Shown here: piece after piece, positions 2,793 to 34,139 of the stretch
How the letters are laid out: every line of letters starts with the position of its first letter
Position numbering within the stretch: the stretch's first letter is position 1
Assembly (NCBI GenBank): GCA_937983545.1
Contig: CALJZP010000080.1
Coordinates: 1 to 42,035 of the forward strand
Source: an uncultured Azonexus sp.
GTDB taxonomy: Bacteria > Pseudomonadota > Gammaproteobacteria > Burkholderiales > Rhodocyclaceae
Direction: 5' to 3'
Length of the DNA stretch: 42,035 nt
Notes under the pieces: generated by a model
What the model saw: the letters and a program-made list of their open reading frames with translations, nothing else
Databases searched by the model: none
What the model was told of the DNA's origin: nothing
Made by a program: the position numbers and the translations under genes

Positions 2793-3032
2793 ATGGATTC
2801 CATTGGCCTGATTCGCGAATTTCTCAAAGACCGCCTTGGCGTCGCGCCCGACACCGTCGTGCCGGAAGCGCCGTTGGCTGACCTCGGCGTCGACTCGCTG
2901 ATGATGCTCGAGCTGATGTTCGAATTCGAGGATCGCTTCAACATCAAGCTGTCCAGCGACCTGAAGACTCCCCAGACCGTCGGCGAAATGGTCGCCTTGA
3001 TGGACGGGTTGATTGCCAGCCAGAAGAGCTGA
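2793..3032 (+). CDS. Acyl carrier protein (aryl polyene pathway, ACP 1)
   Basis: A 79-residue acidic ACP with the phosphopantetheine attachment serine at residue 35 in LGVDSLMMLE. It should carry the aryl starter or growing polyene chain as a thioester in the cytoplasm. It is the first gene of a run in which nearly every neighbour overlaps or touches the next; the ketosynthase starts three bases after its stop. Aryl polyene clusters normally encode two ACPs, and the second lies just beyond the ketosynthase. The ATG at 2793 lacks an obvious ribosome binding site and sits close behind a promoter-like sequence. Identification as ACP is firm; which of the two carries which intermediate cannot be told from sequence. 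Confidence 0.92.
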   Translation: MDSIGLIREFLKDRLGVAPDTVVPEAPLADLGVDSLMMLELMFEFEDRFNIKLSSDLKTPQTVGEMVALMDGLIASQKS

Positions 3033-3035
3033 GCC

Positions 3036-4292
3036 ATGACGAAGCGGCGGGTAGCGATCACTGGCCTCGGGCTGGTCAGTCCTTATGGCGGCGACCTCGC
3101 TGACTTCTTCGCCCGCCTGAGCACCGGCGAATCGGCCATCCGCTACCTGCTGACCGACGATCTGCCGCGCCCGCTGTCCATTCCCTTTGTCAGCTGCCCT
3201 GCTTTCGACCCGGATGCCGCGCTCGGCCGGCCGCTGGCCTCGATGATGGATCGCTTCGCCCAGCTCGGCATGGCTGCCGCGTTCAGTGCCTGGGACGATG
3301 CCGGCCTGCCGCGCAAGCGCGAAGACGATGCCGAACCGCGTGACACCTGGGGCGTTTCCTGGGGTACGGCGCTGGGCGGTACGCTGGCCTATGAGAAGGG
3401 CTATCGCGAACTGTGGCAGAAGGGCCGCGAGCGCCTGTCGCCGCTCGCTGTCGTGCTCGGCATGAACAATGCGGCCAATGCCCACATCTCGATCCAGCTC
3501 GGGCTGGGCGGCATCAGCCAGAGCCATACCGTGGCCTGCGCCTCGTCGGCCATCGCCATTGGCGAAGCCTTCCGCCGCGTCCGATCGGGCGAAGCGACCA
3601 TCATGGTCACCGGCGGCTCCGACGTGCCGCAAGCCTACGGCGTCGCCCGCGCCTGGGAAGCCCTGCGTGTCATGGCCCCCGGCGATGCCGACAGCTCGCC
3701 GTTCGCCTGCCGGCCGTTCGCGGCCGACCGTCGCGGCCTGGTGCTGGGCGAGGGCGGTGCCTCGCTGGTGCTCGAGGACTGGGACCATGCCGTCGCCCGC
3801 GGCGCCCGTATCCACGGCGAAATCGTCGGCTACGGCACCAGTTGCGACCACAGCCACCTGGTTCGCCCGGAAGTCGAAGGCCAGGTCCGCGCCCTCAACC
3901 TGACGCTGGCCGACGCCGGACTGATGCCCGACGACATCGACTACATCAATGCCCACGGCACCGCCACGGCCGAAGGCGACCCGGTCGAAGTCGGCGCCCT
4001 GAAAGCCATTTTCGGCGACCGCGCCGGGCAGCTGGCGGTCAGCGCCACCAAATCGATGCACGGCCATCTGCTCGGCGCCGCCGGCGCCATCGAGGCCATC
4101 GCCACCGTGCTCACCCTGCGCGAGCAGATCGTCCCGCCGACGGCCAATCTCGAAAACAATCTCGATCCGGCCTGTACCGGCGTCGATCATGTGACCGCCG
4201 GTCGCCGCCAGACGCTGCGCGCCGCGCTCTCCAATTCCTTTGCCTTCGGCGGCAGCAACGCGGTCCTAGCCTTCCGCGCCGTCGCCCCGTAA
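3036..4292 (+). CDS. Beta-ketoacyl-ACP synthase (KS 1)
   Basis: A 418-residue FabF-like condensing enzyme with a complete catalytic set: nucleophile Cys168 in VACASSA, His307 in NAHGTAT, and Lys339/His344 in KSMHGHLLGAAG, plus the C-terminal NSFAFGGSNA loop. It should catalyse decarboxylative condensation of malonyl-ACP with an acyl chain. It sits between two ACP genes, the usual signature of an aryl polyene or related type II polyketide locus rather than of housekeeping fatty acid synthesis. A second complete ketosynthase and a chain-length-factor-like partner lie at 20.8-22.8 kb. Which ketosynthase pairs with the partner is unknown. This one may be the initiating or accessory enzyme. Confidence 0.93.
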   Translation: MTKRRVAITGLGLVSPYGGDLADFFARLSTGESAIRYLLTDDLPRPLSIPFVSCPAFDPDAALGRPLASMMDRFAQLGMAAAFSAWDDAGLPRKREDDAEPRDTWGVSWGTALGGTLAYEKGYRELWQKGRERLSPLAVVLGMNNAANAHISIQLGLGGISQSHTVACASSAIAIGEAFRRVRSGEATIMVTGGSDVPQAYGVARAWEALRVMAPGDADSSPFACRPFAADRRGLVLGEGGASLVLEDWDHAVARGARIHGEIVGYGTSCDHSHLVRPEVEGQVRALNLTLADAGLMPDDIDYINAHGTATAEGDPVEVGALKAIFGDRAGQLAVSATKSMHGHLLGAAGAIEAIATVLTLREQIVPPTANLENNLDPACTGVDHVTAGRRQTLRAALSNSFAFGGSNAVLAFRAVAP

Positions 4293-4309
4293 ATCCCGGA
4301 AATCCCGTC

Positions 4310-4582
4310 ATGTCGCAAGCAGCCATCGAAGCCCTGTTGCCGGAAGTCGCCGAATTGATCGTATCGGCCCTCAATCTCGACCTCGCCCCCGGCGAAATCG
4401 AAGCCGACGCCCCCTTGTTCGGCGACGGTCTGGGCCTCGACTCGATCGACGTCCTCGAAGTCGCGCTCGTCGTTTCCAAACGTTACGGCGTCCAGCTCAA
4501 GTCGGATAACGAGGACAACATCCGCATCTTTTCGTCGCTGCGCGCCCTGACCACCTACATCGCCAGCCAGCGAACCCAATGA
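4310..4582 (+). CDS. Acyl carrier protein (aryl polyene pathway, ACP 2)
   Basis: A 90-residue ACP with attachment serine at residue 45 in GLGLDSIDVLEVAL. The preceding LFGDG and the longer N-terminus make it distinct from the first ACP, as in characterised aryl polyene systems where two ACPs divide starter loading and extension. The ATG at 4310 was chosen because it begins the conserved part 17 bases after the ketosynthase stop; the same frame runs far upstream through the ketosynthase only as a shadow. The stop overlaps the start of the following membrane protein (ATGA), implying translational coupling. Confidence 0.93.
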   Translation: MSQAAIEALLPEVAELIVSALNLDLAPGEIEADAPLFGDGLGLDSIDVLEVALVVSKRYGVQLKSDNEDNIRIFSSLRALTTYIASQRTQ

Positions 4583-5244
4583 CGATCACCCCGGCCCAGC
4601 TGCTGCGCGGCCTGGCCGTACTCGTCTTTCTCGTCGCCTGGGCACTACTCGCCCACTACGGTACGGCCGGCGACAGCTCTCCGGATCTGTCAGTGCTGCT
4701 CGGCGTGTCGCCGATTGTCGCGGCGGTCGGCCTGCTGTTCTGGCGTACCCGCCACCCGCTGCTGGCCGGCGGCGGCAACCTGTTGCTGCTCGGCAGCCTG
4801 ATCTGGCTGTGGCCGACCCTGCGCCTGAACGTTCCGCTGGTCTTTTTCATCCAGCACCTCGGCACCAATCTGGCGCTCGCCACCCTGTTCGGGCGCAGCC
4901 TGTTCGGCGACGGCGAGGCCCTGATCACCCAACTCGCCCGCGCGGTTTATCACGGCAAGATTTCCGAACGAAAACGGATCTACACCCGGCAAGCCACCAT
5001 CGCCTGGACACTGTTCTTCCTGACCAACGCCCTGATTTCCGCCGTGCTCTGGCTGTTTGCCCCGCAATCGGCGTGGTCGGTCTTCGCCAACCTGCTGTCC
5101 TTCCCGCTGCTCGTCTGCATGTTCGTTGCCGAACACATCTGGCGAATGTGTGCGCTGCCGCCCGAGGAAAGGCCGAGCATCGCCCAGGTCGCCCGGGCCT
5201 ATCGCATGCACGGCAAGCAGACTCCGCCAGCCAATCCGTCATGA
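4579..5244 (+). CDS. COG4648-type inner membrane protein of the aryl polyene cluster
   Basis: A 221-residue protein with about six hydrophobic segments (around residues 8-27, 38-56, 60-80, 86-106, 138-160 and 165-186) and a short polar C-terminal tail. It resembles the COG4648 membrane protein (ApeG type) that lies between the second ACP and the AMP-ligase in aryl polyene operons. Its biochemical role is not established; a scaffold or lipid-handling role at the inner membrane is a guess. It overlaps both neighbours by four bases. The assignment rests on topology and position more than on a diagnostic motif. Confidence 0.8.
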   Translation: MTITPAQLLRGLAVLVFLVAWALLAHYGTAGDSSPDLSVLLGVSPIVAAVGLLFWRTRHPLLAGGGNLLLLGSLIWLWPTLRLNVPLVFFIQHLGTNLALATLFGRSLFGDGEALITQLARAVYHGKISERKRIYTRQATIAWTLFFLTNALISAVLWLFAPQSAWSVFANLLSFPLLVCMFVAEHIWRMCALPPEERPSIAQVARAYRMHGKQTPPANPS

Positions 5245-6581
5245 ACCTTGTGCCGCTGCTCGCCCATGACGACCTTGCAGCCGTCTTCGCGTGGCGTTCG
5301 GATGGCCCGGTCAGCGTCGGCGACTATCTGGCGGATGTCCATGCACTGGCCGAACAATTGCCGGCTGCCGGCTACCTGCTCAACCTGTGCCACGACCGCT
5401 ACCGCTTCGCCGTCGGTTTCGCCGCCGGCTTGCTGTGCGGCATGACCAGCCTGCAACCGTCCTCGCAATCGCCGGAAACCTTCCGCCGCCTGCGGGACGA
5501 CTATCCCGCGCTGCTCGCCCTGTGCGACGGATCGACCGATACGCAGGACCTGCCGCGCTTCGATTTTCCCGAACTCGCCGGCGAGCGGAACACGGTATCC
5601 GACATCCCGTGCATTCCGGCCGAACACCTGGCCGCCATCCTGTTCACCTCCGGCTCGACCGGCCTGCCGCAGGCGCAGCGCAAGACCTGGGGCAAGCTGG
5701 CGCAGAACGGCCGGGCCGAAGCCGTCGCCCTGGGGCTCGACATCAAGCCGCATGTGCTGGTCGGTACCGTCCCGGTCCAGCACAGCTACGGCTTCGAATC
5801 GACCTTCCTGCTCGCCCTGCACGGCGGTTGCGCCTTCTGGGCCGGCAAGCCGTTCTATCCGCAGGACATCGTCGCCGCGCTGGCGGCCGTGCCGCAACCC
5901 CGCCTGCTGGTCACCACACCCTTCCATCTCTCGGCACTGCTGGCCTCGGGGATCGAGCTGCCGGCCATCGACATCCTGCTTTCGGCGACCGCACCGTTAT
6001 CGACGACGCTGGCCGCCGAAGCCGAAAGCCGTACCGGCGCCCCGATGCTGGAAATCTACGGCTCCACGGAATCCGGCCAGCTGGCCAGCCGGCGCACCAC
6101 CGACGGCACGACCTGGACCCTGCTGCCCGGTGTGCGACTGGAACAGGAGGGTGACGACACCGTCGCCTGCGACGGCCACGTCGAAGGACGTGTCACCTTG
6201 TCCGACGTCATCGAACTGCTGCCCGACAACCGTTTTCTGCTCCACGGTCGCCATGCCGACCTGATCAACATTGCCGGCAAGCGCACCTCGCTGGCCTACC
6301 TGAACCACCAGCTCGGGGCGGTTCCCGGTGTCGTCGACGGCGCCTTCTTCCTGCCCGACGAGGAAGGGCCGGACGGCATCACCCGCCTGACCGCCTTCGT
6401 CGTTGCCCCCGGACTGACGGCACGGCAGATCACCGTCGCGTTGCGCGAACGGATCGAGGCCATTTTCCTGCCGCGCCCGCTGGTGCTGGTCGACAAGCTG
6501 CCGCGCAACAGCACCGGCAAGCTGCCACGCAACGACCTGCAGGCCCTGTACGCCGAAAGGGTAGGGCATGGCCGAGGCTGA
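5241..6581 (+). CDS. AMP-dependent aryl-ACP ligase (ApeH-like)
   Basis: A 446-residue member of the ANL adenylating superfamily. Visible core motifs are the phosphate loop LFTSGSTGLPQ, the A5-type EIYGSTESGQ, the hinge region LLHGRHADLINIAGKR and the terminal catalytic lysine in NSTGKLPRN. In aryl polyene systems this enzyme activates 4-hydroxybenzoate or a related aromatic acid with ATP and loads it on an ACP. The ATG at 5241 overlaps the previous stop, and the next gene begins 14 bases before this one ends. It is somewhat shorter than stand-alone acyl-CoA synthetases, as is usual for this subgroup. Substrate choice cannot be read from the sequence, but a chorismatase able to supply hydroxybenzoate is encoded at 29.4-30.4 kb. 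Confidence 0.9.
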   Translation: MNLVPLLAHDDLAAVFAWRSDGPVSVGDYLADVHALAEQLPAAGYLLNLCHDRYRFAVGFAAGLLCGMTSLQPSSQSPETFRRLRDDYPALLALCDGSTDTQDLPRFDFPELAGERNTVSDIPCIPAEHLAAILFTSGSTGLPQAQRKTWGKLAQNGRAEAVALGLDIKPHVLVGTVPVQHSYGFESTFLLALHGGCAFWAGKPFYPQDIVAALAAVPQPRLLVTTPFHLSALLASGIELPAIDILLSATAPLSTTLAAEAESRTGAPMLEIYGSTESGQLASRRTTDGTTWTLLPGVRLEQEGDDTVACDGHVEGRVTLSDVIELLPDNRFLLHGRHADLINIAGKRTSLAYLNHQLGAVPGVVDGAFFLPDEEGPDGITRLTAFVVAPGLTARQITVALRERIEAIFLPRPLVLVDKLPRNSTGKLPRNDLQALYAERVGHGRG

Positions 6582-6873
6582 ATTCCACTGGACCGTGCCG
6601 GTCGACCACCCGGCTTTTCCCGGGCATTTCCCCGGCCGCCCGATTGTCCCCGGCGTCGTCCTGCTCGACCGCGCCATCCTGTTCGCCGAGGAAATGCTCG
6701 GGCGCCCGGGTCTAGCCTGGCAGGTCGGCAATGCCAAGTTCTTCAGCCCGGTCGGCCCGGAGGAAGCACTCACTTTCTTGCTGAATCAAAAAACAAGCGG
6801 AGCGATTGCCTTTACGGTACGAGCCGGCGATCGTGACGTCGCCGCCGGCAGCCTGACGCCCCCCGCGCCATGA
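6568..6873 (+). CDS. Small hot-dog 3-hydroxyacyl-ACP dehydratase (ApeI-like)
   Basis: A 101-residue single hot-dog domain with the FabZ/FabA signature HPAFPGHFPGRPIVPGV; the likely catalytic histidine is His20. The acidic residue that FabZ carries on the next helix appears as Asp34 in PGVVLLDRA, where FabZ has Glu. In reconstituted aryl polyene synthesis two dehydratases of different subtypes cooperate; the second candidate is at 22.8-23.3 kb. It would remove water from the beta-hydroxyacyl-ACP to give the conjugated double bond. The start overlaps the ligase gene by 14 bases and the stop overlaps the following acyltransferase by four bases. Confidence 0.88.
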   Translation: MAEAEFHWTVPVDHPAFPGHFPGRPIVPGVVLLDRAILFAEEMLGRPGLAWQVGNAKFFSPVGPEEALTFLLNQKTSGAIAFTVRAGDRDVAAGSLTPPAP

Positions 6874-7781
6874 GCCAGGAAAAGCCCGCCGAAGCCGCGT
6901 GGCTGCGCCAGCAGGAACGCAGCAACCTCGCCATCCTCAAACTGATGGTATGGATATCGCTGACCTTCGGCCGCGCCATCGGCCGCCTCGTGCTGCTCGG
7001 CATCGCCGCCTATTTCGTGCTGTTCTCGCCCAAGGCCCGCCGCTTCAGCCGCAATTACCTGCACCGGGCGCTGGGTCGCTGGGCTGAATGGTCGGACGGA
7101 TTTCGCCACGTTTTCAGTTTCGCGAGCACCATCCACGACCGGATCTACCTGCTCAACGACCGTTTCGACCTGTTCGACATCGAGGTGATCGGCGCCGAAG
7201 CGGTCAATGAAGCCGCCCGAACCCATCCCGGCGCGCTGCTCATCGGTGCCCACCTGGGCAGTTTCGAAGTGCTGCGCGCCGTCGGCCGGGGCAGGGAAGG
7301 GCTGCCGGTGGCGATGCTGATGTACGAGGAAAACGCCCGCAAGATCAACACCACGCTGGAAGCCATCAACCCGGCGGCCAGCCAGGACATCATTCCGCTC
7401 GGCCGCATGGATTCGATGCTGCAGGCCCGCGACAAGCTCGACGCCGGCTACGCGGTAGGCATACTGGCCGACCGCAGCCTGAGCCACGACGCGACGATCG
7501 ACTGCCTTTTCCTCGGCCAACCGGCTCCCTTCCCGCTCGGACCCTGGCGCATGGCAGCCATGCTGCGCCGGCCGGTCTTCTTCATGACCGGGCTCTACCT
7601 CGGCGGCAACCGCTACCAGCTGCATTTCGAGCCGCTGGCCGATTTTTCGGATACGCCGCGCGAGGAGCGCGACGCAGCGATTCGCGCAGCCATGCAGCAC
7701 TACGCCGACCGTCTGACGCATTATTGCCGGCAGGCCCCGTACAACTGGTTCAACTTCTTCGATTTCTGGCAGAAAAAATGA
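6870..7781 (+). CDS. LpxL/HtrB-family acyltransferase
   Basis: A 303-residue protein with a hydrophobic helix near residues 25-52 and the lysophospholipid-acyltransferase HX4E motif in GAHLGSFE (His128, Glu133). Later blocks such as ADRSLSHDA and FPLGPWRMA fit the LpxL/LpxM lipid A acyltransferase superfamily. It should use an acyl-ACP donor at the cytoplasmic face of the inner membrane. Inside this operon the natural guess is transfer of the aryl polyene chain, or a companion fatty acid, to a lipid or sugar acceptor. In enterobacterial clusters the acyltransferase is often fused to a glycosyltransferase; here it stands alone and a separate GT2 gene lies at 27 kb. Both ends overlap neighbours by four bases. 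Confidence 0.88.
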   Translation: MSQEKPAEAAWLRQQERSNLAILKLMVWISLTFGRAIGRLVLLGIAAYFVLFSPKARRFSRNYLHRALGRWAEWSDGFRHVFSFASTIHDRIYLLNDRFDLFDIEVIGAEAVNEAARTHPGALLIGAHLGSFEVLRAVGRGREGLPVAMLMYEENARKINTTLEAINPAASQDIIPLGRMDSMLQARDKLDAGYAVGILADRSLSHDATIDCLFLGQPAPFPLGPWRMAAMLRRPVFFMTGLYLGGNRYQLHFEPLADFSDTPREERDAAIRAAMQHYADRLTHYCRQAPYNWFNFFDFWQKK

Positions 7782-8347
7782 TCAAACGACTATTCGGCTG
7801 CATTTTCCTGCTCGCCTTGGCCATTCCGGCCAGCGCCGCTTTCGATATCGGCCAGCTGATGGGCGAACTGGCCAAGCACAAGGGCGGACGCGCCAAATTT
7901 GTCGAGAAAAAATATCTCGCCATCCTCGACAAACCGGTGGTGTCCACCGGGGAAATGACCTACACCGCGCCCGACCGTCTGGAAAAACGGACGTTGACCC
8001 CGAAAGTCGAGACCTTGCTGCTCGACAAGGACATCCTGTCCATCGAGCGCGAAAAGCAGAAACTGAGCATCAACCTGGCCAACCAGCCGGAGGCGCTGGC
8101 CTTCGTCGACAGCATCCGCGGTACGCTGTCCGGCAACCGGGCGGCGCTGGAAAAAAATTATGCCCTGCATCTGGCGGGCAATGCTGACAAGTGGGTGCTT
8201 ACACTCCTGCCCAGCGACCAGAAAATTGCCAGCATGGTCCAGCGCATCACGGTGACCGGCAGCAAGAATCAGGTGCGCGTCATTGAATACCTGCAGGCCG
8301 ATGGCGACCGCGCGGTTCTCAACATCGACCCGATCGACGCCAAATGA
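7778..8347 (+). CDS. LolA-like periplasmic outer-membrane lipoprotein carrier
   Basis: A 189-residue secreted protein with a signal peptide (MIKRLFGCIFLLALAIPASA) followed by a LolA/LolB-like body: FVEKKYLAILDKPVVSTGEM and KVETLLLDKD match the early strands of that half-barrel fold. LolA-like proteins of aryl polyene loci (ApeL type) are thought to carry a lipid-linked product across the periplasm. The ATG at 7778 was chosen because it begins the signal peptide and overlaps the preceding stop (ATGA). Its stop also overlaps the MMPL exporter gene, the same pairing seen in aryl polyene clusters elsewhere. Confidence 0.88.
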   Translation: MIKRLFGCIFLLALAIPASAAFDIGQLMGELAKHKGGRAKFVEKKYLAILDKPVVSTGEMTYTAPDRLEKRTLTPKVETLLLDKDILSIEREKQKLSINLANQPEALAFVDSIRGTLSGNRAALEKNYALHLAGNADKWVLTLLPSDQKIASMVQRITVTGSKNQVRVIEYLQADGDRAVLNIDPIDAK

Positions 8348-10686
8348 CCCGTCAAGCCGGCCGCGCCCTGGCAATCTGGCTGCTGGCCATGCTGGCCGGG
8401 GCTGTGATCGTCTGGAACAGCCGTTTCTCGGCCGACATGTCCTTCTTCCTGCCGGCCAAACCGAGCGCCGAGCAGCAGGTGCTGGTTGACCAGTTGAAGG
8501 AGGGGGTCGTTTCGCGCCTGCTCATGGTCGCCATCGCGGGAGGCGATGCCGCCCAGCGAGCGGAGACCTCCCGCAAGCTGCGCGCCCGCCTGGAAAAACT
8601 GCCGGAATTCGTCTCGATCCAGAACGGCGAAACCGGCAGCATGAACGCCGACCGCGACTTCCTGTTCAATCACCGCTACCTGCTCAGCCCGGCCGTCGCC
8701 CCCGAACGATTTACCGTCGACGGCTTGCGCGAGTCCATCGCCAACAGTATCGACCTGCTCGCCTCGCCGGCCGGCATGATGCTCAAGCCGCTGCTGCCGC
8801 GCGACCCGACCGGCGAACTGGTCGAACTGATTTCCGGCCTCAATGCCGGCGCCCAGCCCAACGCCCGTGACGGCGTATGGGCCTCGCGCGACGGCGAGCG
8901 CGCCATGCTGCTGATCCAGACCGCCGCCCTCGGCTCCGATACCGATGGCCAGGAACGCGCCATCGGCCTGATCCATAGCCAGTTCGCCGAGGCCGCGCCG
9001 GGCGGCCGGTTGAGCCTGCAACTCTCCGGCCCCGGCCTGTTTGCGGTCAAATCGCGGGGGACGATCAAAAGTGAAGTCAGCCTGCTGTCCACCCTCAGCA
9101 CCGTCGCCATCGTCGCCGTGCTGTTCTTCGTCTACCGTTCGCTGCGCCTGATGACCCTCGGCCTGCTGCCCGTCGTCAGCGGCGCGCTGGCTGGCGTCGT
9201 GGCGGTCAGCCTCGCCTACGGAACCGTCTTCGGCATCACCGTCGGCTTCGGCTCGGCGCTGATCGGCGAAGCCGTCGATTACTCCATCTATTACTTCGTG
9301 CAGTCCGGCCGGCTCGGGGTCAATCACTGGCGCGCCCGCTTCTGGCCGACCATCCGCCTCGGCGTGCTGACCTCCGCCTGCGGCTTCGGCGCGCTGCTTT
9401 TCTCCGGCTTCCCCGGCCTCGCCCAACTCGGCCTCTACTCGCTGAGCGGCGTCGTCGTCGCCGCGCTGGTCACCCGCTTCATCCTGCCGCCCCTGGCCGG
9501 CGACAACCTGGGCATGCGCGACCTGAGCCACATCGCTCCCCGCCTCAAGAGCGGCATCGCGCTGCTGCAAGGTCTGCGCTGGCCCATCCTGCTGCTGGCG
9601 CTGGCGGCCGCCACCCTGCTCGCCGTCAATCGCGACCGCCTGTGGCACCCTAACCTGTCGGCCTTGAGCACGGTCAGCGCGGCCGACGGCGAAATCGACC
9701 AGGCTTTGCGCGCCGACATCTCCGCTCCCGACGCCCGCTACATGGCGGTGATCACGGCACCCGACCGCGAATCGGCGCTGCAGGCCGCCGAGCGAGCAGG
9801 GCAGAAGCTCGACCGGCTGATCGTCGACGGCATTATCGGCGGTTACGACAGCCCGGCCCGTTTCTTGCCCAGCGAGGCGATGCAGGCCAGTCGGCGCGCC
9901 AGCCTGCCGCCGACGGCCGAACTGCAAGCGCGCCTGCTGGCCGCGCAGGCCGATTCGCCGCTGGCCGCCGGCAAACTCGGCGGTTTCATCGACGATGTGG
10001 AAGCCACCCGCAGCCAGGGCCGGGTCAGCCGCGAATCGCTGGACGGAACCGGCCTGGCGCTGGCCGTCGATTCGCTGCTGCTGCAGCGCCCGAACGGCTG
10101 GAGCGTCCTGTTGCCGCTGCGCCCGCCCGGCGGCGACAAGGGGGTCGATATCGCCATCGAACCGGTGCGCGCCGCGCTGGCCGGGTCCGGCGCCCTGTTC
10201 GTCGACATGAAGAATGAATTCGACACGCTGTACAACGACTACCTGCACGAAGCGACGCTGCTGTCGCTCGCCGGCTTCGTCGCCATCGTCGGCCTGCTCG
10301 CCGTCACGCTGCGTTCGCCGCAACGCCTGGCCCGGCTGCTGCTGCCACTGCTGCTGTCGGTCGTACTCGTCGTCGCCGGCCTTCACCTGATCGGCCAGCA
10401 ACTGCATCTGCTGCACCTGATCGGCATGCTGTTGATCGTCGCCGTCGGCTCCAACTACGCACTGTTCTTCGACGATGCCAGCCAGTCCACCCGGCGCTTC
10501 GAGGATTTCGACGACGCGACGCTGGTGTCGATGGCCGTCGCCAACCTGACCACCGCCATCGGCTTCGGCACACTCGCCCTGTCCAAGGTGCCGGTGCTGC
10601 ATGCCGTCGGCGTCACCGTGGGGCCGGGTGCGATCCTTGCCCTGCTGCTCTCGGCCTGCTTTGTCAGCAGGAAGGGCAGGGCATGA
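8344..10686 (+). CDS. MMPL/RND-type exporter (ApeM-like)
   Basis: A 780-residue inner membrane transporter with the expected internal duplication: one helix at about residues 8-24, a large periplasmic domain, five helices around residues 245-395, a second helix near 415-430 and periplasmic domain, then five helices from about 640 to the end. The C-terminal helical bundle includes LIVAVGSNYALFFDDA, the kind of acidic membrane segment used for proton coupling in MMPL proteins. Members export lipids and glycolipids. With the adjacent LolA-like carrier it probably moves the finished aryl polyene lipid out of the inner membrane. An 830-codon open frame on the opposite strand here is only a high-GC shadow. 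Confidence 0.93.
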   Translation: MTRQAGRALAIWLLAMLAGAVIVWNSRFSADMSFFLPAKPSAEQQVLVDQLKEGVVSRLLMVAIAGGDAAQRAETSRKLRARLEKLPEFVSIQNGETGSMNADRDFLFNHRYLLSPAVAPERFTVDGLRESIANSIDLLASPAGMMLKPLLPRDPTGELVELISGLNAGAQPNARDGVWASRDGERAMLLIQTAALGSDTDGQERAIGLIHSQFAEAAPGGRLSLQLSGPGLFAVKSRGTIKSEVSLLSTLSTVAIVAVLFFVYRSLRLMTLGLLPVVSGALAGVVAVSLAYGTVFGITVGFGSALIGEAVDYSIYYFVQSGRLGVNHWRARFWPTIRLGVLTSACGFGALLFSGFPGLAQLGLYSLSGVVVAALVTRFILPPLAGDNLGMRDLSHIAPRLKSGIALLQGLRWPILLLALAAATLLAVNRDRLWHPNLSALSTVSAADGEIDQALRADISAPDARYMAVITAPDRESALQAAERAGQKLDRLIVDGIIGGYDSPARFLPSEAMQASRRASLPPTAELQARLLAAQADSPLAAGKLGGFIDDVEATRSQGRVSRESLDGTGLALAVDSLLLQRPNGWSVLLPLRPPGGDKGVDIAIEPVRAALAGSGALFVDMKNEFDTLYNDYLHEATLLSLAGFVAIVGLLAVTLRSPQRLARLLLPLLLSVVLVVAGLHLIGQQLHLLHLIGMLLIVAVGSNYALFFDDASQSTRRFEDFDDATLVSMAVANLTTAIGFGTLALSKVPVLHAVGVTVGPGAILALLLSACFVSRKGRA

Positions 10687-10694
10687 ACGCCACC

Positions 10695-10708
10695 GTTTCA
10701 CGTGGAAC
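10695..10708. promoter_or_regulatory. parS-like ParB binding site
   Basis: GTTTCACGTGGAAC differs by one base from the core palindrome GTTTCACGTGAAAC of the bacterial parS site. It sits in the 28-base gap between the MMPL exporter and the alpha/beta hydrolase genes. Two more copies occur at 30386 and 41952, and the window contains the origin genes, which is where parS sites normally cluster. Confidence 0.75.
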
Positions 10709-10714
10709 CACGGC

Positions 10715-11356: not shown

Positions 11357-11358
11357 CC

Positions 11359-16466: not shown

Positions 16467-16550
16467 CTCTGGCTCCTTCTCCAACCCAAGGTTCGGCGAG
16501 CGCGACTGTTTCAGACGGGTGTGCACACGCGAATTCCAAAAGAGGAATCC

Positions 16551-25740: not shown

Positions 25741-25750
25741 ATTCGTCTCC

Positions 25751-26950: not shown

Positions 26951-27038
26951 GCGCTGTTCAATGGCGGGCCGCCGCTGCCGGCACGGTGTGGATCGGCCTT
27001 CAGGGCCGCATTGCGAACGGGAGGCTGGGTCATGTCGC

Positions 27039-27797: not shown

Positions 27798-27805
27798 GGT
27801 GCGAT

Positions 27806-28588
27806 TCAGGCGGATACGGGAATGGGCGCTGCGGTGGTTTGGCCCAGTTCGCTCCGGAAATAGGCTTCGATCTCGGTCGTGAAGGCTTGTACGTTGGTTG
27901 GCGGATCGAAACGGCGGCCCAGACGCACGCGACAGGTCAGGGGCAGGGTTGGCCGGCGAAACAGCGGCCAGGCCTTGCCCAGGTAAGGCGTCGAGAACTC
28001 GATGAGCACCGTCTGCACCGGCACCTTGGCACGGTTGGCAACCAGACCGGTACTCGGCGAGCAGGGATCGAGCGGAAAATTCCCGGTGCGCGTGCCTTCC
28101 GGAAAAATCACCAGCCGGGCGCCATCCTGCAGGGCCTGCCGCGAATTGAGGATCATCTCGAGCGGCGCATCGTTGCGGATGTAGCGCGCCAGGCGGGCGG
28201 CGGCGCCGAACAACAGGTTATCCATCAGCGAGGCCTTCATGACGCAGACGGCGTTGGGCAGGCGGGAAACGATCATCACCGCGTCAAGCAGCGAGGGGTG
28301 GTTGGCGGCCACGATCAGCGGCCCGGAATCGCGCAGTTTGTCGAGTTCCTGCAGGTCGAAGCGACAGGCACAGAAAATTTCAAGGATGCGCAGGTAGAAA
28401 CGAAAGCCGTTGGAGATGAAGCCGCGCCCGATCGGCTGGCCCCATGCTTGCGGCAGCAGGGGCTTGAAGATCAGCGCGAAGGGCAGCCAGCCAAGGCAGA
28501 TAAGCGCCAGCACGCCCAGGCCGACGACCATGGCAAGGATTTCATAGGCAATCCACAGCGGATTGCCGGAGTGGCCGCGATCAGTCAT
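27806..28588 (-). CDS. PlsC-type 1-acyl-glycerol-phosphate acyltransferase-like protein
   Basis: A 260-residue membrane-associated acyltransferase with an N-terminal hydrophobic hairpin (about residues 11-45) and the PlsC motifs NHPSLLD (His97, Asp102) and FPEGTR (162-167). It should transfer an acyl chain from acyl-ACP to a glycerol-phosphate-like or sugar acceptor. Its start overlaps the MipA-like gene by eight bases, so they are co-translated. Aryl polyene clusters normally include a glycerol acyltransferase of this type, thought to build the lipid anchor. Confidence 0.9.
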   Translation of the reverse strand: MTDRGHSGNPLWIAYEILAMVVGLGVLALICLGWLPFALIFKPLLPQAWGQPIGRGFISNGFRFYLRILEIFCACRFDLQELDKLRDSGPLIVAANHPSLLDAVMIVSRLPNAVCVMKASLMDNLLFGAAARLARYIRNDAPLEMILNSRQALQDGARLVIFPEGTRTGNFPLDPCSPSTGLVANRAKVPVQTVLIEFSTPYLGKAWPLFRRPTLPLTCRVRLGRRFDPPTNVQAFTTEIEAYFRSELGQTTAAPIPVSA

Positions 28589-29429
28589 CGACCTTAACGC
28601 GGGTCGACGATTCTCCGAGAATCCAGGTGATGGCGAGGCCGCCGGCTACATAGTCCTTCTGGCGCACCAGCGGGCTGTTTTCGAAGGTTGCGCCGCTCAG
28701 GTTGTCGTAGCGGACAAAGGCGCCGACCCAGTATTTCGGAAAGCGCTTGGACAGGGCAGCCAGATACTGCATGCCGGCATAGCCGGAACCGGCCTCGTAG
28801 GCCGGACGGGCAGCCGTCGCATATTGCGGCGCCACCGAATAATAGTAGGCGTGCTGGCGCTTGTCGCCGAACAGCGGTCCGGCCAGCAGGCCGAGGTTCC
28901 AGCCGGCCATGCCAGGAATGTCGGTGACGTCCACGTTCAACTTGGGGTGAAAGACCCAGCCGATATCCTTGGGCGAACCCTCGACGGTGAAAGCGGTGCG
29001 CAGGGGCAGCAGCAGCTTGACGAAGCGGGCGCGGTTTTCGGAACGCCACAGGGTGAGGTCGATCTGCGGACCGATCTCGAAGCTTGCCTTGAGGTCGGGC
29101 ATACCGCTGCGCGCCGCGATGTCATTGCTGTTGGCAGGTGGCGACAGGGCAGCGGAAACCGTCAGGTCGATACGGTCGGAATCGAAAAAACTGCCGCGGA
29201 TGCCGTGCCGGTCGGCCTTCAAGAAGTCACCGTGGTAGGTGAAATGCGGCACCGGCATCAGGAAGTTGTTGGTCTGGTCGGAACCGCGGTAGGAAGGAAA
29301 ACTGAATGCCGCGACACCGGCGCCCACTTCCCACAGCGGCTTTTCCTCGACGGCCTGTGCCGCTCCCGTTACGGCGAGCATGGTCGCAACCACCCGGCCC
29401 CATTTACCTGTAAAACACCCCTTGGCCAT
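28581..29429 (-). CDS. MipA/OmpV-family outer membrane protein
   Basis: A 282-residue protein with a signal peptide (from MAKGCFTGKW, cleavage near GAAQA) and a beta-barrel body of alternating strands: PLWEVGAGVAAFSFPSYRG near the start is the MipA/OmpV opening, and the C-terminus ends with AGGLAITWILG. The ATG at 29429 was preferred because GGAGAA precedes it and it lies one base after the chorismatase stop. MipA-type proteins have been linked to murein enzymes, but most are of unknown function. In this operon it could be an outer membrane partner for pigment placement; that is inference. Confidence 0.87.
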   Translation of the reverse strand: MAKGCFTGKWGRVVATMLAVTGAAQAVEEKPLWEVGAGVAAFSFPSYRGSDQTNNFLMPVPHFTYHGDFLKADRHGIRGSFFDSDRIDLTVSAALSPPANSNDIAARSGMPDLKASFEIGPQIDLTLWRSENRARFVKLLLPLRTAFTVEGSPKDIGWVFHPKLNVDVTDIPGMAGWNLGLLAGPLFGDKRQHAYYYSVAPQYATAARPAYEAGSGYAGMQYLAALSKRFPKYWVGAFVRYDNLSGATFENSPLVRQKDYVAGGLAITWILGESSTRVKVDD

Positions 29430-29430
29430 T

Positions 29431-30429
29431 TCAGTTCTCCAGCGCGTGCGAGGCAAAGGCCTCGATTTCGAGCAACAAGTCGTGCCTGCAAATATCGGCC
29501 TGCAGATAGACGATTTCGGCTTCGCCGATCAGCGGTTTCAGCGTGTCGCGAACCTTCTGGAAGTCCCGGGCGTGACGAATATAGACCCGATACGACAGTT
29601 CGGCGAGGACAAAGGCCGGCGAGCGGCACAGGCGGGCAGCCTCGCCAACCACCGCGCCAATATTGGCCATGGACTCACGCGTCTGTCCGACGACATCTCC
29701 GGGATGCACCGTCTGATGTCCGACGATGCTGGCCGTACCGGAAACAAACAGGATTTCCTGCCCTTCGGGATGGACCAGCACGGCGCGCGAGAAAGTCGGG
29801 CTGCGCGGACCATAGTCGGCGGGGTAGTTATAGGCGCTGACCTGGCGCGGGTTTTCGACCGGAACAGCCGGCGTCGCACCGGCCATGAAGGCAATGTTCA
29901 GCGATCCGCCAATCAGGCCGATGGCACAGGCGGCCGGCACGTTACCGGTGGCCCCCCGATGGCATTCGAGAAAAGCATCCTGCCGGCCGATATTGAACTG
30001 GCGATAGCGTTCAAGTCCGCCGGTTTCCAGGTTGATGTTGCCCAGGTAATTCCATACCCGCCACAGGTGCGGCATGCCTTGCTCATCGAGCAGCCGGAAA
30101 ATCCGGCGATAAGCCTCCGCACTCGCGGCCTGCAACGACGAGCAGCCCGGCGTATCCGGGAAATCGACCTCGTTCAGCTCGATTGTCCCGTAAAGCACGC
30201 CATCGGCGCGATGCCAGCCGATCCCGTCGCTCCGGCCGGCCCGCACTGGCTGATCGGTCAGCCAGGTTTCATGGATGGCAGCCGAAGTAGCGCCAAGCAG
30301 GGGCGCGAAAACCCGTTGTACCGGCCAGGCAGGCAGGACACCGTTCGATGGTTCGCCGACCACGGCACCACCCAATTCTCCGTCGGTTTCACGTGAAACC
30401 GCAGAGGGTGAGGAGACAAATCGAAGCAT
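29431..30429 (-). CDS. Chorismatase of the FkbO/Hyg5/XanB2 family
   Basis: A 332-residue protein with the family hallmarks: LWRVWNYLGNIN, GLERYRQFNIGRQDAF, the strongly conserved ENPRQVSAYNYPADYGPRSP and FVSGTASIVGHQTVHPGD. Chorismatases hydrolyse chorismate to pyruvate plus a dihydroxy-cyclohexadienoate or a hydroxybenzoate. XanB2 of Xanthomonas makes 3- and 4-hydroxybenzoate for the aryl polyene xanthomonadin and for ubiquinone. The gene touches the halogenase upstream (2 bases) and the MipA-like gene downstream (1 base). The product subtype depends on a few active-site residues I cannot align reliably here. A parS palindrome lies inside codons 11-15, where it encodes VSRET. Confidence 0.9.
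   Translation of the reverse strand: MLRFVSSPSAVSRETDGELGGAVVGEPSNGVLPAWPVQRVFAPLLGATSAAIHETWLTDQPVRAGRSDGIGWHRADGVLYGTIELNEVDFPDTPGCSSLQAASAEAYRRIFRLLDEQGMPHLWRVWNYLGNINLETGGLERYRQFNIGRQDAFLECHRGATGNVPAACAIGLIGGSLNIAFMAGATPAVPVENPRQVSAYNYPADYGPRSPTFSRAVLVHPEGQEILFVSGTASIVGHQTVHPGDVVGQTRESMANIGAVVGEAARLCRSPAFVLAELSYRVYIRHARDFQKVRDTLKPLIGEAEIVYLQADICRHDLLLEIEAFASHALEN
30386..30399. promoter_or_regulatory. Perfect core parS site inside the chorismatase gene
   Basis: GTTTCACGTGAAAC is the exact 14-base core palindrome of bacterial parS, the ParB loading site. It falls within the first 15 codons of the minus-strand chorismatase gene. Only the two outermost bases of the 16-base consensus differ (G and C in place of T and A). 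It is the best of three such sites in the window. Confidence 0.85.
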
Positions 30430-30431
30430 TG

Positions 30432-31766
30432 TTAAGCGTTATAGACGACGTTGTCGTCGACCTTGCGGATATTGAACTTCCGGCGTTTCCAGCCCATGAA
30501 AGCCCGCTTGGGCTGCATGATGTTGGCGACGTAGTAAAGCATCTTGAATGCCCAGATCGACGACCAGATCGGTGTCTTGCCGAAGATATCCCCGGCCAGC
30601 ATGGACAGCACGGCTTCCTTGGTACGGAACAGGTTGCGCGGCCCCATGAAAAAATCGCGCATGATGGGATTGGTCACGCGATAGATGAACCACGAGAATT
30701 CCTTCGGCCCGTGTTTCATCAAGGCATCGAATTTTCTCAGCGCAGAGGCTGCCTTGGCCGGTGTTTTCAGGCAGGTATCGATCGCTTCGGCAGCGATGAC
30801 ACCGCTGTTCATGGCCAACAGGACGCCGGACGAGAATACCGGATCGATGAAGGCATAAGCGTCGCCGAGCATGACGTAGTTGTCGCCGTGGTTACGCTCG
30901 GACACGTACGAAAAGTTGCCGGTCGCTTCGACCTCGTTGATCAGCCTGGCCTCGGCCAGCCGCTCGGTCAGTTTGGGGCATTGGGCAAAACCGTCGCGCA
31001 GAAACTGTTCGAGGCTGCGCTCGCCCTTGGTCTTCATGTAGTAAGGCCAAGTCACCATGCCGATGCTAGTGATGTCGTTCTGCATCGGTATGAACCAGAA
31101 CCAGCCGTGATCGAACCAGAAGATGGAAATGTTGCCGGCTTCCTGCCCCGGATTGCGGCGCACGCCGGTGAAATGACCGTAGATGGCCGAACTGTTGTGC
31201 TTGGGGTTGCGGTGCTTGATCTGGAAGCGGTTGGCCAGGAAGGTATCGCGGCCCGAGGCGTCGACCAGAAAACGGGCATGCCACTCGGTTTCACGCCCGT
31301 CGTCATGCAGGGCGCGAACAACGACCGTGTTGTCGGGCTGGAAATCCACCGCCTTCGCCTTGCAGCCTTCGTGCACCTCGACACCCTTGCGCGCGGCGTT
31401 GCGGATCAGGATGGTATCGAACTGGTCGCGCTTGACCTGGTAGGCATGCGGCATCGACTTGTCCCATGCCTCGGCGAACCAGAATACCGACGACTGGTCG
31501 TGGTTCGGCGAAACGAACTCGGCACCCGGCTTGTGCATCCCGATGGCCTTCACCTCCTCGGCGATGCCCATGCGCTCAAAGAGCGGCAGGTTGGCCGGCA
31601 GCAGGGACTCCCCTATGTGAAAGCGCGGATGATGCGCTTTTTCGAGGATCACCACCCGGTGGCCCTTTTCGGCCAGCAACGGCGCTACTGTCGTGCCGGC
31701 CGGCCCGCCGCCGATGACCAGCACGTCGCATTGCCGACGTTCAATCGTCTGTGCCTGCTGTTCCAT
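30432..31766 (-). CDS. Flavin-dependent halogenase-like oxidoreductase
   Basis: A 444-residue FAD protein. The dinucleotide-binding GGGPAG is at residues 19-24, RFHIGESLLP at 48-57, and LGDAYAFIDPVFSSG in the C-terminal FAD part. Two features favour a true halogenase: the WxWxIP-type motif WFWFIP at 222-227, and Lys79 in HKPGAEF, where flavin halogenases keep the lysine that holds hypohalous acid. The KPGA context matches phenol/pyrrole-type rather than tryptophan-type enzymes. It would need a flavin reductase from elsewhere. Neighbouring chorismatase supports a hydroxybenzoate-derived substrate, as in the brominated pigment xanthomonadin. Related non-halogenating reductases exist, so activity is not proven. 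Confidence 0.85.
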   Translation of the reverse strand: MEQQAQTIERRQCDVLVIGGGPAGTTVAPLLAEKGHRVVILEKAHHPRFHIGESLLPANLPLFERMGIAEEVKAIGMHKPGAEFVSPNHDQSSVFWFAEAWDKSMPHAYQVKRDQFDTILIRNAARKGVEVHEGCKAKAVDFQPDNTVVVRALHDDGRETEWHARFLVDASGRDTFLANRFQIKHRNPKHNSSAIYGHFTGVRRNPGQEAGNISIFWFDHGWFWFIPMQNDITSIGMVTWPYYMKTKGERSLEQFLRDGFAQCPKLTERLAEARLINEVEATGNFSYVSERNHGDNYVMLGDAYAFIDPVFSSGVLLAMNSGVIAAEAIDTCLKTPAKAASALRKFDALMKHGPKEFSWFIYRVTNPIMRDFFMGPRNLFRTKEAVLSMLAGDIFGKTPIWSSIWAFKMLYYVANIMQPKRAFMGWKRRKFNIRKVDDNVVYNA

Positions 31767-31807
31767 GATTGCAACCTTTTATCGATCTCTGCGGCGGCGA
31801 AGAATTC

Positions 31808-32458
31808 TTATTTGCCCTTGTAGGTCATGTAACCCACGGTTTCGGAGTGACCTTCGATCTTGCTGACCGATCCCTTGGCCCAATAGACATAGTACGGACC
31901 GAAACTCGACCACCAGTAACGCCAGTACGGACCGTCCAGCTTCGGATTTTCGTTCGTCTGCGGGTGACCGACCGACATAATGACCTGTTCCTTGGTCATT
32001 CCTTTCAACAACTGGCCCTTGGCGATCGCATTGCGGATGGCGGGCGAAAACTTGGCGATCTTCGGTTTGGGATCGTCAAGAACGACGATCTTGCTGACCC
32101 ATTGTTCGGTCGTTTCTTCGGCCCGGCCATAGTCATGCCCCAGGCGCATCGGCTTGCCGTCGATTTCCACGTAAGCGCGGTAGCCATCGATCTTCTTGAC
32201 GCTGATCGGCGTACCGGCCGCGATGAAGGGCAGTTGGGCCAGATTCGAATCGCTGATCCAGTCGCCGGAGTAGTGGAGGTTGCAACAGGCATAGCCGTTA
32301 CGGATCCCGGATTCCTTCTTTGCCGGTTCGGAGGCAGCAGCGGCCGGCTTGCCTTCCTCCGGTTTGCTTTCATTACTTTTGCAGGCCCCCAGCGCAAATG
32401 CCAGGCAACAGACGACAGCCAGCAGACGAACGTTTCCGAGCTTTGCGAATTCCTCCAT
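31808..32458 (-). CDS. Lipoprotein of unknown function in the halogenase operon
   Basis: A 216-residue lipoprotein: signal peptide with lipobox ALGAC (Cys26), then a low-complexity Lys/Glu/Pro/Ala linker (about residues 27-50) and a globular part. The C-terminal third, LLKGMTKEQVIMSVGHPQTN, resembles the SmpA/OmlA (BamE) repeat in which one protein segment recognises partners at the outer membrane. The ATG at 32458 was chosen because it begins the signal peptide; a start 48 bases upstream adds an unlikely leader. It lies 34 bases after the radical SAM gene and 41 before the halogenase. Confidence 0.82.
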   Translation of the reverse strand: MEEFAKLGNVRLLAVVCCLAFALGACKSNESKPEEGKPAAAASEPAKKESGIRNGYACCNLHYSGDWISDSNLAQLPFIAAGTPISVKKIDGYRAYVEIDGKPMRLGHDYGRAEETTEQWVSKIVVLDDPKPKIAKFSPAIRNAIAKGQLLKGMTKEQVIMSVGHPQTNENPKLDGPYWRYWWSSFGPYYVYWAKGSVSKIEGHSETVGYMTYKGK

Positions 32459-32492
32459 GACCGGCCCCCATTCCTGTACGAAAGACCGGCAA

Positions 32493-34139
32493 TTATACCG
32501 CTGCACTCACAGGCGACGGCGTGCCGCACGAACTGCCTTCATATACGACCGGAATGATCAGCTTGGCGGCGTCGCGCCGTTTCATTTTGACGCCGGACAT
32601 CGAAACGATGTTGTCGATCTGCAAATCCGTCGACAGTTGCGGCTTGAGTCCGACCGGCTGGCGTGGATGAAGCTTGAATTCGCGTTTGGCTTTTTCCAGC
32701 TGTTCCTTGTTGGAGCTGAAATAGCGGGCCGCGGCAATGGTTTCCGGCAGGTGCTTGAGGACGTGCCACAAACTCCAGCGGTGCTGCCATAGCCGTTTGA
32801 CAAAGCGCCGACGGTAGCCCTTGCTGTCGTAGAAACGTTTGACATGCCAGTTGTACAGCGCATCCATTTCCTCGCGCGTCTCGAAACCTTCCGGCTTGTA
32901 GACGAAATTCAGGCAATTCATCAGGCGCCAGTCCTCGATGAAATCGCCGGTCGGGTCATTGACGCATTCCTCCCAGATCGGCGCACCGTGCAAGGGGCTG
33001 AACTTGGTCATGTTCATTTCGTCCAGGCCGAGCGAGAGAATGAAATCGCTGGTCGTGCGCACGGTTTCCGGCGTCTCGCCGGGCATGCCGAAAATGAACA
33101 AGCCCTTGGCGCGCAGGCCGGCAGCGTGTATCTGGCGCACCGTGTCGCGCACCGCATCCAGCGTGACCCCCGCCTTGTGACGCTCCATCATGCCCGGGTC
33201 GGCCGACTCGATGCCAATCGATACCATCAGCGCACCGGCTTTCTTCAACTGGACGAGCATTTCGTCGGAGGTATGTCCGGCCCGGATGGCACAGTTGAAT
33301 TGCATGCCGAGCGGCTTGGCGATCAACAATTCACATAGATCGAAAACGCGCTGTTTCTTGGCGGTAAACAGGTCGTCGTACATGTTGATATGCCAGACGC
33401 CGAACTTGTCCCGCAAATACTTCATGTGATCGTAGATGTATTGCGGCGAGTTGGTCTTGTACTGCCGCTCGAACACGGTGCGATCGCAGAACGAACAGGT
33501 GTAGGGACAACCGCGCGACGTGATCATTGTTGCGCCGTGCTTCTTTTCGTAGGCGAAGAGCGGCAGGTGGTAATCGTGCGGAAAGCCGGCCAGCTTTTCG
33601 TAGGCCGGGAAGGGCAGTTCGTCCAGATCGACAATGCGATTGCGTCGTGGGTTGACGATGATCCGTCCCGCTTCATTGCGCCAGATCAGGTTCCCGATTT
33701 CAGCCATCGGTTTGCCGTCGGCCAATTCGAGCATGGCACCTTCGCCTTCGCCCATGACCAGACAGTCGATTTCCGGAAACTTATCCAGAATCGGGGCGCC
33801 GAGCGACGATACATGGACGTTGCCGAACACGATTTTGACCTCGGGCCGGCGTTCGCGGATATAGGCGGCAATTTCGAACGCATCCATGAAACCCGAGGTC
33901 GTTGCCGAAAATCCGACCATCTCGGGATCGGTCGCTAGCACGATTTCGGCATTTTCAGCCGTTGTCGGCGGTGCGTATGGTCCGAGGCAGTCGTGCAGTT
34001 GCACGACATGGCCAAATTTTTCCAGCCATGAAGCCAACTGCATGATGCCGATGGGCGGCATTCGGTTGGCCAGTACCGAAAAGTCAGGTTGTCCCGGTAC
34101 AAAATTGAAACCAGCTGGATGGACAAGTGTGACGCGCAT
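32493..34139 (-). CDS. B12-binding-domain radical SAM protein
   Basis: A 548-residue enzyme. Residues 1-150 form a cobalamin-binding-like Rossmann domain (PPIGIMQLASWLEKFGH, VFGNVHVSSLG) without the DxHxxG histidine motif of methionine synthase, as is usual for BchE-type members. The radical SAM cluster is CPYTCSFC with Cys211, Cys215 and Cys218, followed by a long barrel (GIESADPGMMERH, IFGMPGETPETV). Such enzymes methylate unreactive carbons or rearrange rings. It is the first gene of the minus-strand operon that contains the halogenase and chorismatase, so an action on the pigment or its lipid is plausible. The extreme C-terminus (SSCGTPSPVSAAV) looks unstructured. Confidence 0.87.
   Translation of the reverse strand: MRVTLVHPAGFNFVPGQPDFSVLANRMPPIGIMQLASWLEKFGHVVQLHDCLGPYAPPTTAENAEIVLATDPEMVGFSATTSGFMDAFEIAAYIRERRPEVKIVFGNVHVSSLGAPILDKFPEIDCLVMGEGEGAMLELADGKPMAEIGNLIWRNEAGRIIVNPRRNRIVDLDELPFPAYEKLAGFPHDYHLPLFAYEKKHGATMITSRGCPYTCSFCDRTVFERQYKTNSPQYIYDHMKYLRDKFGVWHINMYDDLFTAKKQRVFDLCELLIAKPLGMQFNCAIRAGHTSDEMLVQLKKAGALMVSIGIESADPGMMERHKAGVTLDAVRDTVRQIHAAGLRAKGLFIFGMPGETPETVRTTSDFILSLGLDEMNMTKFSPLHGAPIWEECVNDPTGDFIEDWRLMNCLNFVYKPEGFETREEMDALYNWHVKRFYDSKGYRRRFVKRLWQHRWSLWHVLKHLPETIAAARYFSSNKEQLEKAKREFKLHPRQPVGLKPQLSTDLQIDNIVSMSGVKMKRRDAAKLIIPVVYEGSSCGTPSPVSAAV

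Follow-up and report, generated by a model that had tools for sequence, protein, structure and literature searches.

A cobalamin-dependent radical SAM protein as the probable accessory enzyme of an arcuflavin-type aryl polyene locus

Aryl polyenes are yellow membrane pigments. One gene set of this kind, the arcuflavin (arc) set, was described in 2014 from Azoarcus sp. BH72, and similar clusters were reported in Dechloromonas aromatica (PMC3949708). Table 1 of that paper lists for the arcA-arcK part a halogenase, chorismatase, MipA protein, acyltransferase, glycosyltransferase, Na/H antiporter, ketoreductase (KR), dehydratase (DH), chain-length-factor-like (CLF-like) protein and ketosynthase (KS), and for the rest a methyltransferase, deacetylase, unknown protein, exporter, LolA, acyltransferase, DH, AMP ligase, unknown protein and acyl carrier protein (ACP). 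Insertions in arcK or arcT of BH72 abolished pigmentation, and in vitro Azoarcus ArcB formed 3-hydroxybenzoate (3-HBA) and Azoarcus ArcT activated it (PMC3949708). Arcuflavin itself, C41H52O4, is reported as a non-brominated aryl-heptaene joined to a dialkylresorcinol (DAR); it holds no halogen, and its methionine-derived methyl signal is consistent with one group (PMC3949708). Here, we analyze a 42,035-nucleotide stretch of DNA from an uncultured Azonexus sp. (the window), which is contig C80 of a 3.66-Mb draft genome in 326 contigs, and scan its protein frames against Pfam and NCBIfam. The window probably holds an arcuflavin-type aryl polyene locus equipped with an accessory cobalamin-dependent radical S-adenosylmethionine (SAM) enzyme.

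The arc gene set and related pigment clusters

Domain content and gene order match the BH72 table (PMC3949708), and we are therefore confident that the locus is the arc set and not a new combination of genes. Counterparts of arcA-arcE, arcG-arcK and arcM-arcV of BH72 are all present, arcI and arcU being assigned by position and conservation; the scanned frames of the window showed no arcF, arcL, arcW or arcX. The features that define an arc-type aryl polyene locus were found together: a KS with its CLF-like partner, KR, DH, ACP and AMP ligase, a chorismatase of XanB2/Hyg5 type, further an MMPL exporter, LolA, a GT2 glycosyltransferase and acyltransferases, and, elsewhere in the genome, a dialkylresorcinol (dar) locus.

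A preliminary description of this DNA had read the locus as a hydroxybenzoate-primed aryl polyene pathway in a Rhodocyclaceae genome, and both points are supported. The closest named relatives of the radical SAM gene come from Dechloromonas and Azonexus, the identity to the copy of Dechloromonas sp. CZR5 being 98%, and the host genome is best called Dechloromonas/Azonexus-like. The enzyme classes that had been listed for 2.8-34.1 kb were all recovered by the Pfam and NCBIfam scans, with the second dehydratase placed by position only, but that inventory had overlooked the radical SAM protein, a 232-aa frame, arcG, arcC, arcN and arcO. The combination is not new, as the arc set was already in the 2014 paper, Dechloromonas aromatica included.

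The layout differs from that of BH72 in several respects. The BH72 arc genes are described at two unlinked loci whereas those of the window form a single 31-kb stretch; the window set opens with a FabF-like KS and an ACP, as in several relatives but unlike BH72; and a radical SAM gene that is absent from the published BH72 table adjoins the arcA end. In both BH72 and the window's genome the dar locus lies apart from the arc genes. Within the 31 kb the genes fall into three blocks, which had been read as three operons. The spread is confirmed. In relatives the set is often compact: we fetched 40 arc regions, each at most 20 kb long, from genomes of the family, 20 that have the radical SAM gene and 20 that lack it, and found matches to ArcP, ArcK and ArcE together in 20 of the 40 (L180 with a weak ArcE match), and some single regions (L173, L194) carried a near-complete set. 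Because the set fits into 20 kb in half of the regions fetched, we interpret the three blocks as an arc cluster with unrelated genes lying between its parts. These are DUF1615, beta-lactamase-like, ecotin, RibD-like, methyltransferase-fragment, GNAT and binding-protein genes between ArcM and ArcK, and DUF4124, DnaJ-like and thioredoxin-like genes between ArcH and ArcG.

Xanthomonadin clusters of Xanthomonas and Lysobacter share with the window a type II KS and CLF-like partner, a KR, two DHs, an ACP, a chorismatase-type gene, LolA and exporters, and in Xanthomonas a halogenase (PMC3691225, PMC3949708). Unlike these clusters, as far as those papers describe them, the window's genome has a resorcinol locus and a radical SAM gene. 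LolA and an exporter are also encoded in the aryl polyene (APE) cluster of E. coli. This ape cluster further shares KS/CLF, KR, two DHs, ACPs, an acyl-ACP synthetase, acyltransferases and a methyltransferase, but apeA-apeK, as tabulated in PMC8253772, include no chorismatase or halogenase, and their order is unlike that of the window.

The radical SAM protein and its association with arc genes

The most interesting gene of the 31-kb stretch encodes a B12-binding radical SAM protein. It combines a B12-binding domain with a CxxxCxxC radical SAM domain, as in the cobalamin radical SAM superfamily, and Cys 211, 215 and 218 are invariant in 24 sequences. In all 23 NCBIfam matches listed the protein scored under the cut-off; the best models were HpnJ, ApyD and BchE, each of which is also matched by every one of the 24 aligned relatives. 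Membership was rejected for HpnJ (170.9 versus 577.6 bits needed), BchE (150 versus 481.35), the ladderane type (93 versus 360) and the B12 radical SAM C-methyltransferases KedN5 (82 versus 700), HpnR (61 versus 650) and TIGR03975 (100 versus 282). HpnJ, BchE and ladderane-type proteins share the B12-binding and radical SAM domains with the window protein. The structure predicted from the 24 aligned relatives was poor, with a mean pLDDT of 53.8. OxsB, HpnJ, PbsB, BchE and ladderane synthase are given as the few non-methylating B12 radical SAM members (PMC13142503); two of them, HpnJ and BchE, belong to the top HMM matches of the window protein. A literature search, mostly outside subscription journals, found no paper that assigns a radical SAM enzyme to an aryl polyene pathway, and the two subjects stand apart in the relevant portions of PMC9902471.

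Relatives of the gene were collected by a pattern-based scan of one genome per species over 84,980 species, which is biased to close relatives. It found 113, and the best 80 (66-98% identity) were kept; an arc match in their surroundings required an identity of 40% or more and a query coverage of 40% or more. Among these best 80 of 113, at least one arc gene lay in the flanks at 66 loci and at least two at 58, and 39 of the 48 loci of at least 20 kb had two. The gene's exact position varied. In most Rhodocyclales loci the neighbor was ArcA, in Azoarcus relatives the gene lay between KS and ACP2, in Gallionellales-type loci it followed ArcE, in Chromatiaceae it was divergent from ACP2, and in Rubrivivax metagenome-assembled genomes (MAGs) it stood beside ArcN. 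In a Verrucomicrobia MAG (L097) a copy encoding a protein 71% identical lies inside a divergent aryl-polyene-like cluster, amid GT2, acyltransferase, KS, ACP, AMP ligase and chorismatase genes. Mapped on a tree of 79 radical SAM sequences, the hand-labelled arrangements imply 12 changes, 7 if only the unlinked state is considered.

The association was also evident across genomes. With the MMPL exporter ArcP chosen as the marker of the pathway, we surveyed 160 family genomes at E-value thresholds of 1e-150 for radical SAM, 1e-60 for ArcP, 1e-80 for ArcA, 1e-20 for ArcB, 1e-15 for DarA and 1e-30 for NrdD, and found 22, 41, 27, 36, 21 and 23 carriers, respectively. ArcP was present in 21 of the 22 radical SAM carriers and in 20 of the 138 non-carriers (Fisher p = 5e-14, kinship ignored); counted by genus, the association had p = 2e-6 (12 and 21 of 68 genera, kinship again ignored). 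NrdD, used as a negative control, showed no association with ArcP (7/23, p = 0.6). ArcP also occurred in 27/27 ArcA carriers and 35/36 ArcB carriers, leaving none and one without it, so for these two third-block genes the outcome that would have refuted the preliminary description, homologues occurring routinely without aryl polyene genes, was not seen. A single genome of this survey, G081, had the radical SAM gene without ArcP. In a nearer set of 41 genomes, 18 had the radical SAM gene, 17 of these ArcP as well, and 5 of 22 ArcP carriers were without the radical SAM gene. Finally, 22 loci had at most one arc-type match in their flanks; whole-genome searches in 17 of these cases (leaving out L022, L046, L058, L059 (ArcA adjacent) and L097) found ArcP elsewhere in 14. 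The genome sets overlap by coordinates (for example, G081 = G213 and G106 = G201), and the tests are not independent.

The protein is also strongly conserved. Its identity to the window's copy exceeded that of ArcA at 44 of 52 loci, of ArcB at 50 of 51 and of ArcP at 15 of 15; ArcH came nearest among arc genes, the radical SAM protein being higher in 15 of 23 loci. This level matches that of MnmE (radical SAM higher in 15/33) and DnaA (higher in 9/25).

Could the protein instead serve another membrane or cofactor pathway, and its proximity to arc genes result from location near the origin or from joint transfer? In favor of this explanation, which we hold to be possible although rather unlikely, the gene adjoins mnmE-yidC-dnaA in the window, its conservation is of housekeeping grade, no reaction is known for the protein, and in three genomes it was found and ArcP was not. 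However, its neighbors vary by lineage yet include arc genes at most of the best loci, and ArcP persists in the bulk of the genomes whose radical SAM copy is unlinked or nearly so, a group partly shared with the family survey.

Several observations nevertheless weigh against a role for the radical SAM protein in pigment synthesis. The gene is missing from 20 of the 41 ArcP-bearing family genomes. In two congeners (G020, G021) it is absent although the locus otherwise preserves the order of dnaA-yidC-mnmE, the 232-aa frame and arcA-B-D-E-G. Conversely, it was found without ArcP in L057 (G200, also G013), L093 (G213, also G081) and L084 (G208), all of them metagenome drafts, and tests of ten neighboring frames at these loci revealed no pathway genes. 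ArcK searches of the three genomes gave matches of 34-41% only; matches from the L097 genome were no higher despite its divergent cluster, and one of that kind is therefore possible in the Akkermansiaceae genome of L084. The radical SAM sequence of that MAG groups with the Gallionellaceae type on the tree and has no arc match nearby, which may reflect transfer or mis-binning. In addition, neither ArcA activity nor C-methylating radical SAM activity is visible in arcuflavin as described from BH72. These exceptions, and the overlap between genome sets, lower our confidence in the radical SAM part of the interpretation; taking both sides together, we consider it likely that the enzyme has a role in the aryl polyene pathway.

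Chorismatase, halogenase-type protein and the probable dialkylresorcinol half

ArcB aligns with FkbO and Hyg5 and has the FkbO/Hyg5 N-terminal domain, with a score against TIGR04444 of 236.7 bits, under the cut-off of 325. A Gly and a Cys mark 3-HBA-forming Hyg5-type chorismatases, alongside a catalytic Glu (PMC7170507). All three residues of the 3-HBA-forming type were found in ArcB when aligned with 5ag3; they do not separate Hyg5-type from XanB2-type enzymes. ArcA carries an FAD motif, WxWxIP and the catalytic lysine, which we take to be the marks of a flavin-dependent halogenase, and Lys79 and WxWxIP are intact in 61 of 61 aligned rows, some of them possibly near-copies. Since these motifs are intact and the best PDB matches are halogenases, halogenation is plausible, and ArcA possibly halogenates the pigment.

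The same genome contains a darA homologue (G000:C30, E 1.5e-127), with homologues of darB, D, E, F and I beside it on contig C30 (55-68%), in the order seen in G066. This locus suggests that an arcuflavin-like ester is likelier than a free xanthomonadin. DarA was found in 11 of the 22 radical SAM carriers and 10 of the 138 non-carriers (p = 4e-6), but we draw no tie between the radical SAM gene and the resorcinol half, as within ArcP-bearing genomes the enrichment was not clear (11/21 carriers versus 6/20 non-carriers, p = 0.2).

These data bear on the product proposed in the preliminary description, a halogenated and lipid-anchored aryl polyene. The corresponding alternative, in which the product is a xanthomonadin-like pigment carrying bromine or chlorine and a simple lipid anchor, and the radical SAM gene has nothing to do with it, draws support from the conserved halogenase motifs and PDB matches of ArcA and from the pairing of halogenase gene and bromination among xanthomonadin producers: Xanthomonas clusters with the gene accompany brominated pigments, and the Lysobacter cluster, described as having none, yields non-brominated ones (PMC3691225). 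By contrast, the BH72 cluster encodes ArcA and yet yields non-brominated arcuflavin joined to DAR (PMC3949708), which leaves halogenation as no more than a possibility; the dar locus points away from a simple lipid anchor and toward an arcuflavin-type ester; and the radical SAM gene follows ArcP across genomes. We regard this alternative as unlikely.

Gene inventory, proposed pathway and probable role of the radical SAM enzyme

The features of the locus are collected in Table 1; several start codons are approximate. On the plus strand run, from left to right, ACP1, KS1, ACP2, ArcU, T, S, R, Q, P, O, N and M, then K, J, I and H; on the minus strand follow G, E, D, C, B, A, the 232-aa frame and the radical SAM gene.

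Table 1 Features of the arc locus in the window
Feature	Position	Strand	Basis
Acyl carrier protein ACP1	2793..3032	+	PF00550 3.7e-13; KS1 of other arc clusters has a similar ACP next to it
FabF-like ketosynthase KS1	3036..4292	+	PF00109/PF02801; present in other arc clusters, e.g. L162, L173, L181
Acyl carrier protein ACP2, ArcV-like	4307..4582 (start approximate)	+	PF00550; NF006617 135.8 bits, cut-off 70 exceeded
Membrane protein, ArcU-like	4579..5244	+	Position; 32-49% identity in other arc clusters; no Pfam/NCBIfam match
AMP ligase, ArcT-like	5241..6581	+	PF00501; 55% to ArcT-position protein of G066
Dehydratase, ArcS-like (FabA/ApeI-like)	6568..6873	+	FabA-like 1.1e-6
LPLAT-type acyltransferase, ArcR-like	6870..7781	+	PF03279 7e-10
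LolA-like carrier, ArcQ-like	7775..8347 (start approximate)	+	PF19574 (LolA_3) 8.2e-22; NF053544 LolA2_flexi 59.5 bits, under cut-off 125
MMPL exporter, ArcP-like	8344..10686	+	PF03176 2.9e-16
Alpha/beta hydrolase, ArcO-like	10715..11356 (start approximate)	+	PF12697 6.9e-7
Polysaccharide deacetylase, ArcN-like	11356..12159 (start approximate)	+	PF01522 7.2e-28
SAM methyltransferase, ArcM-like	12156..12878 (start approximate)	+	PF08242 1.5e-11
Ketosynthase, ArcK-like	20830..22014 (start approximate)	+	NF006618 540 bits, cut-off 407 exceeded
KS-like partner (chain-length-factor-like), ArcJ-like	22011..22814 (start approximate)	+	PF13723 7.1e-24
Second dehydratase, ArcI-like	22790..23257	+	Position; conserved between ArcJ and ArcH in relatives; no Pfam/NCBIfam match
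Ketoreductase, ArcH-like	23254..23973	+	NF004200 380.6 bits, cut-off 273 exceeded
Na/H exchanger, ArcG-like	25751..26950	-	PF00999 1.7e-26
GT2 glycosyltransferase, ArcE-like	27039..27797	-	PF00535 4.6e-20
Acyltransferase, ArcD-like	27806..28588	-	PF01553 1.4e-15
MipA outer-membrane protein, ArcC-like	28581..29429	-	PF06629 3.9e-40
Chorismatase, ArcB/XanB2/Hyg5-like	29431..30429	-	PF21168 3e-38; Hyg5-type Gly + Cys and catalytic Glu aligned
Flavin-dependent halogenase-type protein, ArcA-like	30432..31766	-	PF04820 1.8e-31; best PDB matches halogenases
Lipoprotein-like 232-aa frame	31808..32506	-	No Pfam/NCBIfam match
B12-binding radical SAM protein	32493..34139	-	PF02310 4.8e-17 + PF04055 1e-21, both over Pfam cut-offs

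The 232-aa frame adjoins ArcA in G066 and is missing at many Dechloromonas-like loci; two congeners that lack the radical SAM gene have it adjacent or close to ArcA. Among the intervening genes, 15993-16526 (minus strand) encodes an ecotin-type protease inhibitor (PF03974, 1.2e-42) and 17825-18208 (minus strand) a 128-aa frame with the core of a SAM methyltransferase domain only, possibly a fragment. Positions 34278-42035 hold DUF2726, then mnmE and yidC, then dnaA-dnaN in opposite orientation; the arc set adjoins this probable replication origin region, as at many Dechloromonas-like loci. Rfam at gathering scores gave no match within the window, and no tRNA was found there.

By homology, ArcB would convert chorismate to 3-HBA and ArcT would activate it, as the Azoarcus proteins do in vitro (PMC3949708). 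The ACPs would carry the chain, ArcK/ArcJ with KS1 would extend it, and ArcH would reduce and ArcS/ArcI dehydrate every unit added, so that a conjugated aryl polyene results. Ring O-methylation is probably the work of ArcM and halogenation perhaps that of ArcA, and the acyltransferases, LolA-like and MMPL proteins are predicted to deliver the product to the outer membrane. A dialkylresorcinol from the separate dar locus is probably attached to it.

For the radical SAM enzyme, we infer as the first-ranked role that it modifies a C-H bond in some molecule of the pathway, an accessory step dispensable for the basic pathway. It would be accessory, probably tailoring, because about half of the exporter-bearing genomes are without it, and a slow-evolving, dispensable gene that follows the pathway would fit a tailoring enzyme with a fixed substrate. 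That it is an O2-independent substitute for an oxygen-dependent pigment step, as BchE is for AcsF, is improbable. In its favor, two of the three top HMM matches are HpnJ and BchE, and all 24 aligned members match both, but the scores lie far under the cut-offs. ArcA occurs in 17/21 radical SAM carriers and 10/20 non-carriers among ArcP-bearing genomes, and the two thus do not replace each other. NrdD, a rough and weak marker of anaerobic growth (B12-dependent NrdJ was not searched), is not enriched in the same carriers (2/21 versus 5/20) and gave no support to a link with anaerobic lifestyle, and no clear family stood in for the gene when 20 regions without it were compared with 20 with it (20-kb regions, crude gene calling).

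The same comparison yielded one small family in 5 regions with the gene and none without (crude ORF caller). ArcM was present in 16/20 regions with and 10/20 without the gene, a difference to which we give no weight, because each region stops at 20 kb or where its contig does and the one of L183 does not reach block 1.

G066, a 4.45-Mb genome with an arc and dar layout as in BH72, has the radical SAM gene between arc and dar, and by analogy BH72 itself may carry it. We read the methionine-derived methyl of arcuflavin as sitting on the methoxyphenyl-heptaene (from m/z 317.2 and 121). If BH72 has the gene, the arcuflavin extract, as reported without a C-methyl group, would weaken a role as C-methyltransferase but leave it conceivable, chiefly because the enzyme may need low oxygen. 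More tentatively, and with doubt outweighing belief, the protein may represent a new cobalamin radical SAM subfamily whose target is the polyene or the aryl head and which gives undescribed carbon-modified aryl polyenes, possibly only under low oxygen. Its hosts might then be arcuflavin-type producers of Rhodocyclales, Gallionellales, purple sulfur bacteria and some Verrucomicrobia, and its reaction could conceivably be that of a cyclase, cross-linker or oxidase, by analogy with the non-methylating HpnJ, BchE and ladderane enzymes. If a conserved B12 enzyme does tailor aryl polyenes, an undescribed pigment structure would await, perhaps formed at low oxygen only, together with a new B12 radical SAM reaction whose substrate class would be predictable.

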